From a virus: a stretch of 64,000 nt of DNA. The DNA is taken from positions 1-64,000 of the IMG/VR virus record IMGVR_UViG_3300031758_000010; one strand, given 5' to 3'. Every line of letters begins with the position of its first letter. The stretch's first letter is position 1. Below are positions 6,262-14,283 of this stretch, piece by piece. Made by a program: the position numbers and the translations under genes. Under the pieces are notes generated by a model, which saw nothing but the letters and a program-made list of their open reading frames with translations, ran no database searches and had not been told where the DNA came from.

Positions 6262-9200
6262 ATGGCTTCTAACAGTAAAGTATTCGTATCTCCCGGGGTT
6301 TATACCTCTGAGGTCGATTTGAGTTTTGTATCACAAAGTGTTGGTGTTACAACTCTAGGTATTGTTGGTGAAACTTTAAAGGGTCCGGCTTTTGAGCCAA
6401 TCTTTATTACCAACTTTGATGAATTCACCACCTATTTTGGTGGGACTACACCAGAAAAGTTTATAAACACACAAATCCCAAAATATGAGGCGGCTTATAT
6501 AGCTAAGGCTTATTTACAACAATCTAATCAATTGTTTGTTACAAGAATTTTAGGTCTATCAGGATATGATGCAGGACCATCTTGGTCTATAAGAGTTAAA
6601 GCCAACGTTGATACAACTACAGTTGGGTTTAATTGTTTGTCATTTGCGGGTCCTGATATTTCTACAGGATGTGCTGTTGAATGTACTCAGTTTGAAGAAT
6701 ATCCATTCCAAATAGACTTTTCAGGATGTAATACAGGTATAGATTCGATTGTTTATTTAGATGAAACTCAGATTCCTGATATAATTTTAAATAAATTAAA
6801 TTTACCTTATGAGCAATTTGATGGTGGAATTTCGTCATTGGATGAAAATATTAAAACACAAATAAACAACGCAATCGAGGATAATAGTTTACAATCAACT
6901 CAAATAAATTATTACGGTGTTGTTCCGACAACAATATACAATGATTTTATAAGTTTTGGTTACACTGGAATATCAAATGTATTTGAAGTTGATAATATTA
7001 GTTTTGATAATGCTGATTTTTCAGACCCTAACAATGACCCTTGGTATTATGCAATGTTTGATAACGTAGGTAATGCGGTATACACAGGTTCATCTTTCTA
7101 TTCTTATTTAAGTATAACCCCAACAACAACCTCAACTAATTGTGCGACTTTCTATAATTATAGTGTTTTAGGTGTAGAAGGTAGTATAAATTATGATACA
7201 AATACAATTGATGTCGTTTTACCATACGCTTCTTTCTCAGGAACTGATTTAACATCAATCGTAAGTGATTTTAGCGCTTGTTGTAGCGGAGTTACTGTAA
7301 ATACAATACTACAAGAAAGTGGTATAACTACAAATGACTTTAGTTTCGGTAGTTTAACATACGAATTAGTATCGAATGACTCAACAGTTACAACATATTG
7401 GACAGTTTCTGTAACTATACAAAATCCATGTAATCCTATAGTTTCAGGAAACACTGGTTCTGGTAATGTAGGTGAAGTACTGGAATGTTTTAGTGGAAGT
7501 GTTTTCGGTGTGATTTATGTTTATTCAGGAATGGCTTATACTAATTATGATGATTTAGTAATTGCAACACTCCGTTCAAGAGGTTTGGCCACTTATTCAT
7601 CAGATAATGGAGCGGTATATGAAGTACCTAGTTTAACAGGTGTTACTTTAAATTGTACAGGTTCTTACTCAGGAATAACTAAAAACCCATACCTAACATT
7701 TGGAGTTAATGTAACAAGTAAAGATGGGGACGTGTATTTCTTTGAAACATCATTTACTAATTCAGATACCGAATATATAACTAAAGTTTTTGGAACAACT
7801 AACTTCTCAAAACCTAGAACTGTGGTTCCACTTTTTGTAGAAGAGAAATTCCAATTACTTTTAAACTATGGTTATAGAAAAGGTTATATAAGAGGTTTGG
7901 ATTGTGAGTTAATTGCTTTACCCGACGCAAGACAAGGATTTGACCCAACTTCAATTGGGTGGTATTTAGAACAATATCAATCCCCAACATCTCCTTGGGT
8001 TGTTTCTGAATTAAGAGGTAATAAAGTTTATAACTTATTTAAGTTTACAACTATTGCTGACGGTAACGACGCAAATACCGAAGTTAAAATTTCTATAGCA
8101 AATATTTCATTTGGTAATGGAACATTTGATGTTTTAGTTAGAGATTTTTATGATTCAGACGCCAACCCTGTTGTAATTGAGAAATTCACTAACTGTACTA
8201 TGAATCCAAATGAAAACAGTTTCATAGCTAAAAAAATTGGTACTAAAGACGGTGAATATCAATTAAACTCAAAATATGTTATGATTGAGATAAATGAGGA
8301 CGCTCCAGTTGATGCGTTACCTTGTGGATTCTTAGGTTACAATATGAGAGAGTATGCCGGTGCTAGACCTCCGTTCCCAATTTATAAAACAAAATATGAT
8401 TTCCCTGGAGAAGTAGTTTATGACCCACCATTTGGTTTGGCCACAGGTGGTAATGATGCGATTACATCTCCTGGTGACAATGTTCGTAGAACTTATTTAG
8501 GTGTATCAGATACTATAGGTATCGATGTTGATTTTTACCAATATAAAGGTAAACAAACACCATTAAATATTTGTACTGATACTACAGGTGATGATTGGGC
8601 ATATAGAACAAGAGGTTTCCACATGGATATAAACGCAAGTGCTATAACTATTGGAAACGGATATACAACCTCAGGTGCACCAGCATTCTATGTTGGGTCT
8701 GCATCATTCACTAGTGACCCTGATAATGAAACAAATCCATACTACAGAATATACGCTCGTAAATTCTCATTGTTGTGCCAGGGTGGTTTTGATGGATGGG
8801 ATATATACAGAGAATACAGAACTAATTCTGACAGATTTGTGTTAGGAAAGAGTGGATATTTAAGAGGGGCTTGTCCCGATACAAGATATCCAAACGCAAC
8901 AGGATGGGGAGCATTCAAACAGATATCAGTTGGTGATAATACTATGGACTATGGTAACACAGACTATTACGCTTATTTGTTAGGACAAAGAACATTCTCA
9001 AATCCTGAAGCTGTTAATATAAATGTGTTTGTTACACCTGGTATTGACTATGTTAATAATTCTAATTTGGTTGAGGCGGCTGTAGAAATGGTAGAATTTG
9101 ATAGAGCAGATTCGTTGTACATTACAACTACTCCTGACTATAACATGTTCTCACCAACTGCAGGTGAACCAACTGAATTAATTTACCCACAGGAAGCGGT

Positions 9201-9849
9201 AGACAATTTGGAAACCGCTGGTTTGGATTCTAACTACACATGTACTTATTATCCTTGGGTATTAACTAGAGACACAGTTAATAACACTCAAATTTACATT
9301 CCTGCAACCGCCGAGGTTACTAAAAACTTAGCGTTGACTGATAACATTGCGTTCCCATGGTTCGCAGCTGCTGGTTACACTCGTGGTATAGTAAATGCGA
9401 TTAAGGCTCGTAAGAAGCTAACTCAAGAAGACAGAGATACTCTTTATCAAGGTAGAATTAACCCAATTGCAACCTTTTCTGATGTAGGAACTGTAATTTG
9501 GGGTAATAAAACTCTACAGATTAGACAGTCGGCTCTTGACAGAATTAATGTTAGACGATTACTATTACAAGCTCGTAAGTTGATTTCGGCAGTTTCTGTT
9601 AGATTGTTGTTTGAACAAAATGACCAAAAAGTCAGACAAGATTTCTTGGATGCGGTTAACCCAATCTTAGATGCTATCAGAAGAGACAGAGGATTATACG
9701 ATTTCCGTGTAACAGTTTCTTCAGATACTGCTGACTTAGATAGAAACCAAATGACAGGTAAGATTTATATTAAACCAACTAGGTCACTTGAATTTATCGA
9801 TATTACATTCTATATAACCCCAACAGGTGCGTCGTTTGAAAATATCTAA
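6262..9849 (+). CDS. Tail sheath protein (T4 gp18-like), 1195 aa
   Basis: The N-terminus (VFVSPGVYTSEVDLS, then a GLVGETLKGP-like segment) and the C-terminal third (residues about 880-1195, with VNPILDAIRRDRGLYDFRV and IYIKPTRSLEFIDITF) are the hallmarks of contractile tail sheaths. Sheath subunits form the cylinder around the tube and contract to drive it through the cell envelope. T4 gp18 is 659 aa; here about 380-400 residues, Thr/Ser/Asn/Cys-rich and beta-prone, are inserted after residue 120. Such insertions sit on the outside of the sheath in other phages. A late-type element lies 35 nt upstream, and a strong hairpin follows the stop. Confidence 0.95.
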   Translation: MASNSKVFVSPGVYTSEVDLSFVSQSVGVTTLGIVGETLKGPAFEPIFITNFDEFTTYFGGTTPEKFINTQIPKYEAAYIAKAYLQQSNQLFVTRILGLSGYDAGPSWSIRVKANVDTTTVGFNCLSFAGPDISTGCAVECTQFEEYPFQIDFSGCNTGIDSIVYLDETQIPDIILNKLNLPYEQFDGGISSLDENIKTQINNAIEDNSLQSTQINYYGVVPTTIYNDFISFGYTGISNVFEVDNISFDNADFSDPNNDPWYYAMFDNVGNAVYTGSSFYSYLSITPTTTSTNCATFYNYSVLGVEGSINYDTNTIDVVLPYASFSGTDLTSIVSDFSACCSGVTVNTILQESGITTNDFSFGSLTYELVSNDSTVTTYWTVSVTIQNPCNPIVSGNTGSGNVGEVLECFSGSVFGVIYVYSGMAYTNYDDLVIATLRSRGLATYSSDNGAVYEVPSLTGVTLNCTGSYSGITKNPYLTFGVNVTSKDGDVYFFETSFTNSDTEYITKVFGTTNFSKPRTVVPLFVEEKFQLLLNYGYRKGYIRGLDCELIALPDARQGFDPTSIGWYLEQYQSPTSPWVVSELRGNKVYNLFKFTTIADGNDANTEVKISIANISFGNGTFDVLVRDFYDSDANPVVIEKFTNCTMNPNENSFIAKKIGTKDGEYQLNSKYVMIEINEDAPVDALPCGFLGYNMREYAGARPPFPIYKTKYDFPGEVVYDPPFGLATGGNDAITSPGDNVRRTYLGVSDTIGIDVDFYQYKGKQTPLNICTDTTGDDWAYRTRGFHMDINASAITIGNGYTTSGAPAFYVGSASFTSDPDNETNPYYRIYARKFSLLCQGGFDGWDIYREYRTNSDRFVLGKSGYLRGACPDTRYPNATGWGAFKQISVGDNTMDYGNTDYYAYLLGQRTFSNPEAVNINVFVTPGIDYVNNSNLVEAAVEMVEFDRADSLYITTTPDYNMFSPTAGEPTELIYPQEAVDNLETAGLDSNYTCTYYPWVLTRDTVNNTQIYIPATAEVTKNLALTDNIAFPWFAAAGYTRGIVNAIKARKKLTQEDRDTLYQGRINPIATFSDVGTVIWGNKTLQIRQSALDRINVRRLLLQARKLISAVSVRLLFEQNDQKVRQDFLDAVNPILDAIRRDRGLYDFRVTVSSDTADLDRNQMTGKIYIKPTRSLEFIDITFYITPTGASFENI

Positions 9850-10842: not shown

Positions 10843-11331
10843 ATGGCTGATTTATTAATGAAAATGCCCATACCTTATGAACCCAAAAGGAATAACCGAT
10901 TTATTTTACGTTTTCCTTCTACATTAGGTATAAACGAGTGGTTCGTTGAATCTGCCGCTCGACCTCATATTACGATTGTTAGTACTGAGATTCCATTCTT
11001 AAATACCTCAACTTATGTTGCTGGTCGTTTTACGTGGGGAGAAATAAGTGTGGTATTTAGAGACCCAATTGGACCTTCGGCTTCACAGGCACTTATGGAA
11101 TGGGTTCGTTTATGTGCGGAATCTGTTACAGGTCGTATGGGTTATGCTGCGGGTTATAAAAAGAATGTTGACCTTGAAATGTTGGACCCTACAGGTGTTG
11201 TAGTAGAAAAATGGATTTTAGAAGGAACATTCTTAAACGATGTTAACTTTAATTCTTTAAGTTATTCTGATGATAAGTTAGCAACAGTTACGGCTAAAAT
11301 GAGAATGGACCGTTGTATCTTGGTTTACTAA
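10843..11331 (+). CDS. Tail tube protein (T4 gp19-like), 162 aa
   Basis: Length and sequence match the gp19 tube family: FILRFPSTLGINEWFVESA near the start, then TYVAGRFTWGEISVVFRDPIG and a C-terminal AKMRMDRC. Stacked hexamers of this protein form the inner tube through which DNA leaves. T4 gp19 is 163 aa. It follows the sheath, with the HAD gene between them, and precedes the chaperone-like and tape-measure genes, as expected. A palindromic TATTTATAAATA element lies 36 nt upstream, and a hairpin plus T-run follows. Confidence 0.92.
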   Translation: MADLLMKMPIPYEPKRNNRFILRFPSTLGINEWFVESAARPHITIVSTEIPFLNTSTYVAGRFTWGEISVVFRDPIGPSASQALMEWVRLCAESVTGRMGYAAGYKKNVDLEMLDPTGVVVEKWILEGTFLNDVNFNSLSYSDDKLATVTAKMRMDRCILVY

Positions 11332-11355: not shown

Positions 11356-11387
11356 AATCCCATATTATTAATATGGGATTTTTTTTT
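11356..11387 (+). terminator. Intrinsic terminator after tail tube gene
   Basis: Stem AATCCCATAT / ATATGGGATT, five-base loop, then seven further T. The mini zinc-finger gene begins 3 bases later. Confidence 0.8.
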
Positions 11388-11390
11388 ATT

Positions 11391-11522
11391 ATGGAAAACA
11401 ATACAGGATTTACATGTAATACTTGTGGTAAAGTCTTCGAAACCGAGGAAGAGTTTTTGAATAGACATAATAATAAGAAAAAACCCGAAGAAAATCAACA
11501 AAAAGACAATTTAAAGGAATAG
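11391..11522 (+). CDS. Mini zinc-finger-like protein, 43 aa
   Basis: A short ORF lodged between the tube terminator and the next gene, ending 4 bases before it. It has Cys9 and Cys12 (CNTCG), a Phe at 16, a Leu at 23 and His26, the spacing of a C2H2 finger, but no second His follows at the usual distance; Asn or His from another chain might complete a site. The rest is Lys/Glu/Asn-rich. The A-rich leader after the terminator, and AAGGA near its end in front of the next gene, fit translation. Function unknown. Confidence 0.6.
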   Translation: MENNTGFTCNTCGKVFETEEEFLNRHNNKKKPEENQQKDNLKE

Positions 11523-11526
11523 TATT

Positions 11527-12282
11527 ATGGATGAATCATTAATAAAGGCTGCGACTGAAAATTTTAATTTACCACATGACGTGGTGGTTCTACCAACTGG
11601 TGGAGTGTTTTACAAATCAAAAAAGAAAAGTATTAAAGTTGGTTATTTAACGGCTAACGATGAGAACTATCTAATGTCAGGATTGGGTACTAGGGACAAT
11701 ATAGTTATGACATTGTTAAGGAACAAAATTTACGAGCACGACTTAAGACCTGAGGAACTCTTAGAAGAAGATATTCAGGCAATACTTTTATTCTTGAGAA
11801 ATACCTCGTTTGGTCCTGAGTATATAGTCAAATTAGAAGACCCAAAAAGTAAAAAAGAGTTTGAGGAAACACTAATATTGGACGAAATTAACATCAAAAA
11901 GGGGAAAATTTTACCAAGTGAAGATGGTACTTTTACCACGAAATTACCGGTTAGCGGCAGTTCTGTAAAACTAAGACCCTTATCTTTTGGTGAATTGTTT
12001 GAAATAGATAAATTATTAGAAAATTACCCCAAAGGAAGGGTTGCACCTAGAGTGACTATGAGATTACAAAGACAAATTATGGAAGTTGACGGTAACTCAG
12101 ATACAAGTCAAATTTCTCTTTTTATAGATAAATTACCAATAGGTGACTCCAAATACATTAAAAACTTTATAAAAGAAAATATTCCGTCGTTAGATTTAAA
12201 TAAAACAGTAATTACCCCATCAGGAGATAAGATAGATGTTGACATCGTCTTTGGGGTAGAATTTTTTCGGCCTTTCTTCTAA
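11527..12282 (+). CDS. Baseplate hub / tail assembly chaperone-like protein (T4 gp26-like), 251 aa
   Basis: Resembles the T4 base plate protein family that includes gp26: an N-terminal strand with LPTGGVFY, a segment KVGYLTANDENYLMS, a helical Glu-rich middle (LRPEELLEEDIQAILLFLRN) and a later RPLSFGELFEIDKLL. Tube - this gene - tape measure is also the classic position of tail assembly chaperones made in two forms by frameshifting. It ends at 12282 just after a TTTTTT run at 12262-12267, beyond which the +1 frame continues for about 52 residues. Whether the protein is a hub part or a chaperone is not settled by sequence. Confidence 0.55.
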   Translation: MDESLIKAATENFNLPHDVVVLPTGGVFYKSKKKSIKVGYLTANDENYLMSGLGTRDNIVMTLLRNKIYEHDLRPEELLEEDIQAILLFLRNTSFGPEYIVKLEDPKSKKEFEETLILDEINIKKGKILPSEDGTFTTKLPVSGSSVKLRPLSFGELFEIDKLLENYPKGRVAPRVTMRLQRQIMEVDGNSDTSQISLFIDKLPIGDSKYIKNFIKENIPSLDLNKTVITPSGDKIDVDIVFGVEFFRPFF

Positions 12283-12424
12283 ACATAAAATTTCTTTAGC
12301 GAACGAATACATTATATTATCTAAGAATCTTAGTACATCTTACTTTGATTTTACATCAATGCCGACTTATTTCAGAAAATATCTGATAGATAAGGTTATT
12401 GAGATGAATACTCCTAAAACCTAA
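12260..12424 (+). CDS. Overlapping +1-frame extension of the gp26-like gene
   Basis: Open in the frame +1 to the preceding gene, from just after a TAG at 12257-12259 to TAA at 12422-12424. It has no early ATG, GTG or TTG; the first ATG is at MPTYFRK, about 34 residues in. The peptide is a convincing protein segment (KISLANEYIILSKN, then MPTYFRKYLIDKVIE), with the Met-Pro-Tyr-Arg helix typical of tail chaperone ends. A shift at ATTTTTTCGG would give a fused product of about 298 aa. An indel in the T-run is the alternative explanation. Confidence 0.6.
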   Translation, partial: NFFGLSSKHKISLANEYIILSKNLSTSYFDFTSMPTYFRKYLIDKVIEMNTPKT

Positions 12425-12453: not shown

Positions 12454-14283
12454 ATGATGTATCAACCAACACCAGGAGGCTCAAATCAGGAGGCAGCGAG
12501 TGATTTTTATGATTACGTAAGTAAATTGGGTAGTAAAAGTATGGAAGCCTTTTTTGGCAACTTTTACCCAGGATTAAGAAATCTTGTTAACACAGTTCAA
12601 GAAATTGACGCTGACGCCACTAAAGTGGCTAAAACTTTTGGACAAGGTAGAGAAAATATTGCGGGTATTAAAATTGCGTTGGTCGACGCTGCGACTTCAG
12701 TTGAGGCTTTGGGAGGTAAATTTGTTGATGTTGCAAAAATACAAACTGACTTAACTAATAGTTTAGGTAGGTCGGTTATGCTAACATCAGAATCATACGA
12801 CGACATTTTTGCAACAACACAAGTAACTGGACAAGAAGCTGGAAAACTGTTTACTAGTTTTAAAAATATTGGGACATCCGCTTATGGTGTTGCCTCCGGA
12901 ATGCAAAAAATTGTTGACACCGCTAGACAACAAGGTCTTAGTGTTGAGAAGGTTAGTGAGCAGGCGATGAGTAATATGGAATCAATGAACAAGTACAATT
13001 TTCAAGGGGGTGTTGACGGATTGGCTAAAATGGCAGCCCAAGCAACTAGTTTAAGAATTGATATGGCAACTACTCTTAATTTTTCAAATGATTTATATAA
13101 GCCCGAAAAGGCGATTGAAATGTCAGCGGCACTCCAAAGACTTGGGGTTACTCAGTCTGAATTGTTGGACCCACTAAGATTAATGGATTTATCTATTAAT
13201 GACCCAACAGAACTTCAAAATCAGTTAGTACAAATGACTCAACAATTTGTAACTATGAATGAAGCCGGACAATTTGAGATTGCTCCTGAGGGAAAACTTA
13301 GAATGAGAGAATTAGAACAAGCCACTGGAATTGCGTATGGAGAGTTAACAAAAATGGCTTTAGGTTCCGCAGAATTAGAAAATAAGTTGTCTAAAATAAG
13401 ATTTCCTGAGTTTATGACCGAAGAGCAACAAAAAATGGTTGCAAATTTGTCCGAAATGAAGGATGGTCAATATGTAATATCAATTGATGGTACAGAACAA
13501 AACTTACAAGAGTTACTTGCTAGAACAGATAGTCAGGAAGAAATTAACAAAATATTAGAGGCTGCCAAACCTAAAACAATGGAAGATTTGGCTAAGGAAC
13601 AGTTGAACCTCCAACAAAGTATGGAAGCGAGCTTAGCAAAAATGGCCGGGAGAACCTCAAGAGCGTTGGCGACATCTAAAATAGGTGAGGAAGTTACTGA
13701 GGCGATAAAAGAAGGTTATACAAATATGACAGATGTTGTAACCGATAGAGATGTTATGTCGGCAAAAAGTATTCGTGAGTTGTTTAACATTGCGGACCCT
13801 AAAGAGATGACGAATTTAATGAAAGATGTTTTGTCAGGTAAAGATGTTGATGTTGGAGGAAAATTCATGGAAATGGGTGAAGATGCCGGAGGTTTATTAG
13901 GTGAACAAATGAAAAGTTTGGCTCAAAATTTGGCCGAACAAGGAAAAAAATTAGAAGAGTCTGATAATATATTTGCCGGTGTTGTAAATACGTTAGTTGA
14001 TGAACTTTCTGGATACATAAAAGAAGTTAGTGGAGTTGACATAAAAGCAAAAATTGCGGAATATCAAGGTAATGAAACACAGTCAACAAAAACTACCCCA
14101 CAAACCAATACACAAACTATTAACAATAATTCAACTGTGGATGTAAATATAAAATTAGATGTTCCACCTGGAATGTCAGTTCAAGAAGTTTCAGACGCAT
14201 TAAGAACCGAACAAATTAAACAAGAAATAGTTAAAATTGTTGAGGAAAAATATCCCGACCTTAAGTTAAAACCAGCACATTAA
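12454..14283 (+). CDS. Tape measure / baseplate hub protein (T4 gp29-like), 609 aa
   Basis: Largely helical with many Ala, Met, Gln and Glu residues, long stretches without Cys or Pro, and a Thr/Asn/Gln-rich linker near residues 545-570 before a small C-terminal domain (VDVNIKLDVPPGMSVQEVSDAL). Length is close to T4 gp29 (590 aa), the tape measure that sets tail length, so a tail of about T4 length is inferred. It sits just after the chaperone-like gene. A TATTTAT element lies 15 nt upstream, and AAAGGA before the ATG ATG is one of the few Shine-Dalgarno-like sites in the window. Confidence 0.75.
   Translation: MMYQPTPGGSNQEAASDFYDYVSKLGSKSMEAFFGNFYPGLRNLVNTVQEIDADATKVAKTFGQGRENIAGIKIALVDAATSVEALGGKFVDVAKIQTDLTNSLGRSVMLTSESYDDIFATTQVTGQEAGKLFTSFKNIGTSAYGVASGMQKIVDTARQQGLSVEKVSEQAMSNMESMNKYNFQGGVDGLAKMAAQATSLRIDMATTLNFSNDLYKPEKAIEMSAALQRLGVTQSELLDPLRLMDLSINDPTELQNQLVQMTQQFVTMNEAGQFEIAPEGKLRMRELEQATGIAYGELTKMALGSAELENKLSKIRFPEFMTEEQQKMVANLSEMKDGQYVISIDGTEQNLQELLARTDSQEEINKILEAAKPKTMEDLAKEQLNLQQSMEASLAKMAGRTSRALATSKIGEEVTEAIKEGYTNMTDVVTDRDVMSAKSIRELFNIADPKEMTNLMKDVLSGKDVDVGGKFMEMGEDAGGLLGEQMKSLAQNLAEQGKKLEESDNIFAGVVNTLVDELSGYIKEVSGVDIKAKIAEYQGNETQSTKTTPQTNTQTINNNSTVDVNIKLDVPPGMSVQEVSDALRTEQIKQEIVKIVEEKYPDLKLKPAH

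Follow-up and report, generated by a model that had tools for sequence, protein, structure and literature searches.

A probable +1 frameshift at UUU_UUU_CGG would give short and long tail assembly chaperones from one gene of a T4-related phage

Introduction

In phage lambda, a −1 frameshift produces the tail proteins gpG and gpGT (Levin 1993; Xu 2004, 2013; reviewed in PMC5009743). According to the same 2016 review, G-T frameshifting of the lambda type is a widely conserved feature of phages with long tails, "except T4", and the archaeal myovirus HSTV-2 is very likely to use a +1 shift (PMC5009743). A +1 shift in a phage structural gene is described for haloarchaeal HSTV-2 and also for Listeria phage PSA, in proteins unrelated to the one studied here (PMC9024508, PMC5009743). 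Our gene resembles the lambda pair in that a short and a long chaperone would come from one gene between tail tube and tape measure, and differs from it in that lambda shifts −1 at another heptamer.

Vladimirov, Gautam and Davidson reportedly identified the tail assembly chaperones of T4-like phages in 2022 (Virology 566:9-15). Passages of PMC10885494 credit that study with the observation that a frameshift is replaced in some T4-like phages by a pair of chaperone genes, one short and one long, and passages of PMC12846349 give poly-T −1 signals as known in T4-like TAC-N genes. The first-pass annotation of this locus, made from the sequence alone, knew of no such behaviour in T4-like phages; these descriptions of short and long chaperones and of poly-T sites correct that statement (PMC10885494, PMC12846349). 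As portrayed in such passages, the chaperones of Vladimirov 2022 form the same functional pair as the one proposed below, made from two genes, one short and one a long fusion, or at poly-T −1 sites. In passages citing that study, neither a +1 class nor UUU_CGN nor a hairpin upstream was found. Judged against them, a +1 class with UUU_CGN, a rare Arg codon and a conserved 5′ hairpin appears to be new, while this kind of frameshift is itself known.

Influenza A PA-X and plant amalgaviruses have UUU_CGN as their +1 motif (PMC5052127). Their sites have a core identical to ours and use all four CGN codons, but belong to RNA viruses read by eukaryotic ribosomes, and no upstream hairpin was found described for them (PMC5052127). 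The likeness between these sites and the one reported here is convergent.

The chaperone gene and its neighbours

The window, the whole 64,000-nucleotide stretch of DNA analysed here, derives from an IMG/VR virus record of 126,766 bases (126.8 kb); the chaperone gene, the slip site, the +1 stretch, the hairpin and the tail tube and presumed tape measure genes described below lie on its plus strand. An open reading frame at 11527–12282 encodes a protein of 251 aa ending in ...GVEFFRPFF, the candidate short chaperone (TAC-N; T4 gp26-like). The protein matches PF12322 (T4_baseplate; E 9e-8, 32.6 bits, above the curated cut-off of 24.5) and phrog_150 ("baseplate hub"; E 2e-10), and on these profile matches it is a T4 gp26/gp51-type protein. 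An AlphaFold (AF2) model of the plain 251-aa form (pLDDT 87) was compared with predicted viral proteins by Foldseek and matched the SP-15 baseplate hub subunit (TM 0.80, E 6e-18) as well as predicted baseplate hub proteins of many T4-like phages, e.g., Aeromonas phage 25 gp26. Against the PDB, the model found no solved structure at E ≤ 0.001, TAC structures (HK97 gp13 or other) included. Fold matches of the model to actin and a PDB sequence match of the protein to Rab-8A (E 0.005) were judged to be chance.

The gene sits between those for the tail tube and the presumed tape measure. The 5′ neighbour (10843–11331) is assigned as tail tube by its match to phrog_4542 (E 3e-22), and the 3′ neighbour (12454–14283) as tape measure by position only. 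The product of the latter has no reliable match among Pfam-type and PHROG profiles, and Flavobacterium phage immuto and Listeria phage LIS04 have a gene annotated as tape measure in the same position. A small ORF (11373–11522), placed between the genes for tail tube and chaperone, encodes 49 aa that include a zinc-finger-like motif, FTCNTCGKVFETEEEFLNRH. Further upstream, 6262–9849 encodes a tail sheath protein of 1195 aa, far above the size of T4 gp18, with its sheath domains C-terminal.

The slip site and the overlapping frame

A run of six T at 12262–12267 is followed by CGG at 12268–12270, and the 0-frame closes four codons after this UUU_UUU_CGG (12262–12270) at a stop at 12280–12282. The +1 frame opens past a TAG at 12257–12259 and is open from 12260 until its stop at 12422–12424 (stretch 12260–12424), the candidate tail of the long form (TAC-NC; T4 gp51-like tail) on the dN/dS and homology evidence given below. 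A +1 shift through UUU_UUU would resume reading at 12269 and give a fusion of 298 aa, with 51 C-terminal aa read after the shift. Short and long forms encoded with a common N-terminal domain, and a shift site near the 3′ end, are found here at the sequence level. In the +1 frame, no ATG, GTG or TTG is reached until 30 codons past the site, so the bulk of the extension could not be started separately from one of these codons. No sense codon is used less in the 34 window genes than CGG and CGC (2 each among 20,254 codons), and the site itself accounts for one CGG. The site sequence TTTTTTCGNCC occurs only once in the whole 126.8-kb record. The 0-frame stop, the TAG and the end of the +1 frame were re-derived exactly as the first-pass annotation had placed them, and its remarks on the missing early start codon, the rarity of CGG and a joined product of about 298 aa agree with these values.

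Conservation and selection in the clade

A search of IMG/VR yielded 203 relatives, of which 80 were kept; 77 are readable at the site, the remaining three being truncated where the contig ends. All 77 carry UUU_UUU_CGN in the form TTTTTTCGNCC[TG]TTCTT together with a +1 frame open for at least 45 codons, and in each, at the sequence level, UUU is followed by an in-frame CGN and a +1 product is encoded. The +1 site of Listeria phage PSA is a proline codon before a stop, and not UUU_CGN. A separate scan with a DNA pattern returned at least 120 contigs, and every one of the 73 distinct contigs among those fetched has the open +1 frame, the few short frames ending at a contig edge. The alignment with related phages that had been proposed as a check on the frameshift accordingly finds the T-run and both frames kept in all 77 readable loci.

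The extension behaves as coding sequence in the +1 frame. Across 36 non-redundant sequences it holds a mean of 0.0 stops in this frame, compared with 4.2 in −1 and 7.5 in frame 0. Nucleotide diversity past the 0-frame stop is 0.33/0.23/0.52 by +1 codon position, and the median dN/dS of the +1-frame extension is 0.29 (123 pairs), values that indicate that the extension is under purifying selection. On the clade tree, 0 synonymous changes fall on the two slippery UUU codons, compared with 5–7 at four other invariant Phe columns. A homopolymer at the site might point to a mistake in sequencing or assembly, or to a gene broken recently, but the same site recurs in many independent metagenomes (77 loci) and in 73 distinct contigs found by pattern, and both reading frames are under selection. 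We regard this explanation as negligible, and the sequences already refute it by the breadth of the site's occurrence. Conserved TTC TTC codons downstream, considered as an additional signal, are accounted for by dual coding (Leu-Ser-Ser).

The arginine codon placed in the A site is CGC in 17, CGG in 13, CGT in 4 and CGA in 1 of 35 clade sequences. CGG or CGC thus occupies the site in 30/35, compared with 0/322 among Arg codons upstream in the same gene (Fisher 8e-39, relatedness ignored). This preference is confounded because the third base of CGN is at the same time base 2 of the codon read first in +1, which becomes Gly, Ala, Val or Asp. As that codon may want Gly or Ala, we downgraded the third-base bias as pure evidence for a rare codon.

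A conserved hairpin upstream of the site

Synonymous constraint upstream of the site falls on [AG]CC-CC, UCA-GGA-GAA and UUU-GGG-G, and the CCCC and GGGG runs pair as a hairpin with a loop of ~32 nt. In the window, the 5′ arm ACCCCA lies at 12214–12219 and the 3′ arm UGGGGU at 12252–12257, ending 4 nt 5′ of the T-run. Pairing is kept in 97.6% of alignment cells and two pairs have changed on both sides (shuffles 2/500 and 7/500), and it is lost when the partner arm is slid; covariation is limited to these two cases, and the folding energy of the region is no better than that of shuffles (z −0.2). The hairpin is present in 70 of 73 distinct contigs gathered by a pattern that excluded it. The GGG codon of the 3′ arm is kept in 34/36 sequences, with 2 changes compared with 8–14 at four other invariant Gly columns of this gene. 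Loci L061 and L062 carry changes in the hairpin arms and in the AGGAGA stretch, and the hairpin is partly lost in both.

Within the loop, UCAGGAGA (12220–12227) is synonymously conserved (TCA 31/35, GGA 34/35, GAA 28/29). It resembles a Shine-Dalgarno (SD) sequence, yet its distance to the slip site is ~35–42 nt, and these phages barely use such sequences. SD-like motifs are absent upstream of 32/34 window genes, and an SD-type stimulator is therefore unlikely; genes poor in SD motifs are expected for phages of Bacteroidota. For GGGG, an SD-like role was ruled out, as the window genes are without SD motifs and GGGG pairs with the conserved CCCC. The layout also departs from the +1 arrangement of prfB, in that GGGG lies 8 nt before the second UUU and the SD-like stimulator of prfB 3 nt upstream. 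The hairpin probably re-forms as the mRNA exits the ribosome, favouring a forward step.

Relationship of the extension to T4 gp51

T4 gp26 and gp51 both match PF12322, gp51 being longer by ~48 residues. The window record and six relatives of 173–322 kb each have one PF12322 gene per genome, and T4 has two. Profiles of the fused proteins connect the two arrangements: that of the class shifting −1 aligns to T4 gp51 through its C-terminus (E 7e-8), and that of the window clade aligns with the −1 profile over its whole length, the extension too (E 3e-15). Extensions compared alone gave E 1e-6 (window and other +1 clades), 8e-8 (other +1 and −1), 3e-4 (window and −1) and 5e-4 (−1 and the gp51 tail), with reversed controls at E 0.1 or worse. 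A direct hhalign comparison of the window-clade profile with the single T4 gp51 sequence returned nothing (E 0.57). By this chain of alignments, the extension is homologous to the C-terminal tail of T4 gp51, linked through the −1 class. T4 genes 26 (short) and 51 (long) thus share PF12322 with the window gene and gp51 bears the homologous tail, but they are two genes, on opposite strands, with no frameshift.

Homologous sites across the family

Frameshift sites in this family share one FF position, with +1 in some lineages and −1 in cyanophages and jumbo phages. Locus L084, with UUU_UUU_AGU, looked at first like an exception, but a slip is possible there at the first UUU. The architecture is shared by annotated distant relatives, and those with a +1 extension include Bacillus SP-15 (TTT TTT CAC), Listeria LIS04 (TTT TTT AGT), Streptococcus phage GXN1 (TTC TTT CGT), Microcystis Mel-JY01 and Rhodothermus RM378 (both TTT TTT TGG), a huge phage (AAC TTT CTA) and Flavobacterium immuto (TTT CTT TGG). 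In the immuto clade (L091, L104–L183), 79/79 readable loci fit +1, through TTTTTTTGG in 40, TTTCTTTGG in 34, TTTCTATGG in 4 and TTTCTTTAC in 1, and UUU is followed by a pyrimidine at every one. UGG follows the slip site in 78/79 of these loci, Trp being otherwise very rare in the protein; UGG could be the slow A-site codon of this lineage.

These sites bear on the possibility that RNA polymerase slips on the six T, so that some mRNAs carry the joined frame. The run is invariant in the window clade, as such slippage would predict; however, TTTCTTTGG, without a homopolymer, stands at about half of the immuto-clade loci, and transcriptional slippage needs neither the conserved CGN nor the hairpin. 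Six T is also a short run for this process, and we consider it very improbable.

A −1 extension at U_UUU_UUN is found in 78/80 cyanophage-clade loci, one of the others being truncated and one broken upstream, and in the jumbo phages 121Q, RaK2, GAP32, Munch, Hallingskeid, Phosso, XaC1, XacN1, PA5oct and Atu_ph07. We found nothing specific in the literature on cyanophage or jumbo-phage frameshifts in this gene. The gp26-like genes that have a −1 site at their end (cyanophages L094 and L185–L264; jumbo phages L089, L090, L095–L101 and L103) have their gp51 unannotated or as a tiny separate gene, and no joined CDS annotation exists among the fetched records. In cyanophages L185–L264, an SD-like run, GAG-GG[AT], often lies ~8–10 nt before the −1 heptamer, resembling the layout of a dnaX-type −1 stimulator. 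Deep in the cyanophage group, L261, L263 and L264 now have Leu (TTG/TTA) as the second Phe codon and retain six T; the slippery run, not the Phe residue, seems to be conserved there.

In S-SCSM1, Cygsa01 and LR756511 the extension is a separate or overlapping ORF. Such cases (an ATG of its own in L093, TAATG overlaps in L102 and L087) would suit an extension expressed as a separate small gene, by re-initiation or from its own start, as would the TTG or ATG that many clade members have in the +1 frame ahead of the site. These upstream codons, however, are not at a conserved place, and in the window phage, L002, L006 and L007 the +1 frame is closed by a stop 2 nt ahead of the T-run and then offers no ATG, GTG or TTG for 28–30 codons. 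Separate expression has, in our estimate, a very small chance of being correct for the window gene.

The window clade shares the UUUUUUC heptamer with most −1 members, but in a phase that differs by one base. An X_XXY_YYZ heptamer for −1 is not found in the window clade, where UUUUUUC is off phase by one base and the −1 frame is closed. We suggest, tentatively and at a little less than even confidence, that UUUUUUC, at one and the same position in this protein family, may be read +1 (UUU_UUU_C) or −1 (U_UUU_UUC) according to lineage, with +1 driven by the hairpin and the PA-X-like UUU_CGN.

Direction of the shift and proposed mechanism

The first-pass annotation had proposed a programmed frameshift in a G/GT-like chaperone between tube and tape measure, and the comparative evidence supports it. 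It had left the direction as +1 or −2, and of these +1 is preferred. Re-pairing two bases back, as in phage Mu, would be possible for a P-site UUU on the six T of the window clade, and would give a product of 299 aa with one extra Phe. The first UUU is, moreover, as constrained as the second, and a simple +1 shift at the second UUU needs no such constraint. However, GAA TTC TTT CGT, AAC TTT CTA and ACN TTT CTT TGG have no run for −2. Such a shift is impossible in L082, in L086 and in those immuto relatives that have TTTCTTTGG, yet the extension is in the +1 frame at all of these sites. Constraint on both UUU codons also fits forward re-pairing at either or both. We favour +1 because homologous sites without the T-run keep the extension in that same frame; going by these alignments, +1 is the likely direction and −2 an unlikely one, the little that remains belonging to other routes.

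It is therefore very likely, from the comparison of sequences, that one gene yields a short and a long tail chaperone through a +1 frameshift at UUU_UUU_CGG. Under this +1 mechanism, the majority of ribosomes would end at 12280–12282 and release the 251-aa form. A minority would hold tRNA-Phe on UUU in the P site while the CGG Arg codon in the A site is slowly decoded; the tRNA would then re-pair from UUU to UUC, one base forward, and reading would continue into the 298-aa form. Tandem re-pairing at the first UUU may accompany that at the second, and re-formation of the GCCCC/GGGG hairpin behind the ribosome would favour the forward slip. If the analogy with lambda gpG/gpGT holds, the short form would coat the tape measure and the tail of the long form would recruit tube subunits. 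T4 would obtain the same chaperone pair from its paralogous genes 26 and 51.

Implications for the family

Many phage genomes are annotated with the short chaperone, its tail missing or listed as "hypothetical". One protein family shows all solutions, namely a +1 shift, a −1 shift, an overlapping or separate ORF and two paralogous genes, and the switch between them is thus open to direct test. If the +1 reading is true, UUU_CGN with a conserved 5′ hairpin would extend to bacterial ribosomes a motif described until now in eukaryotic RNA viruses.
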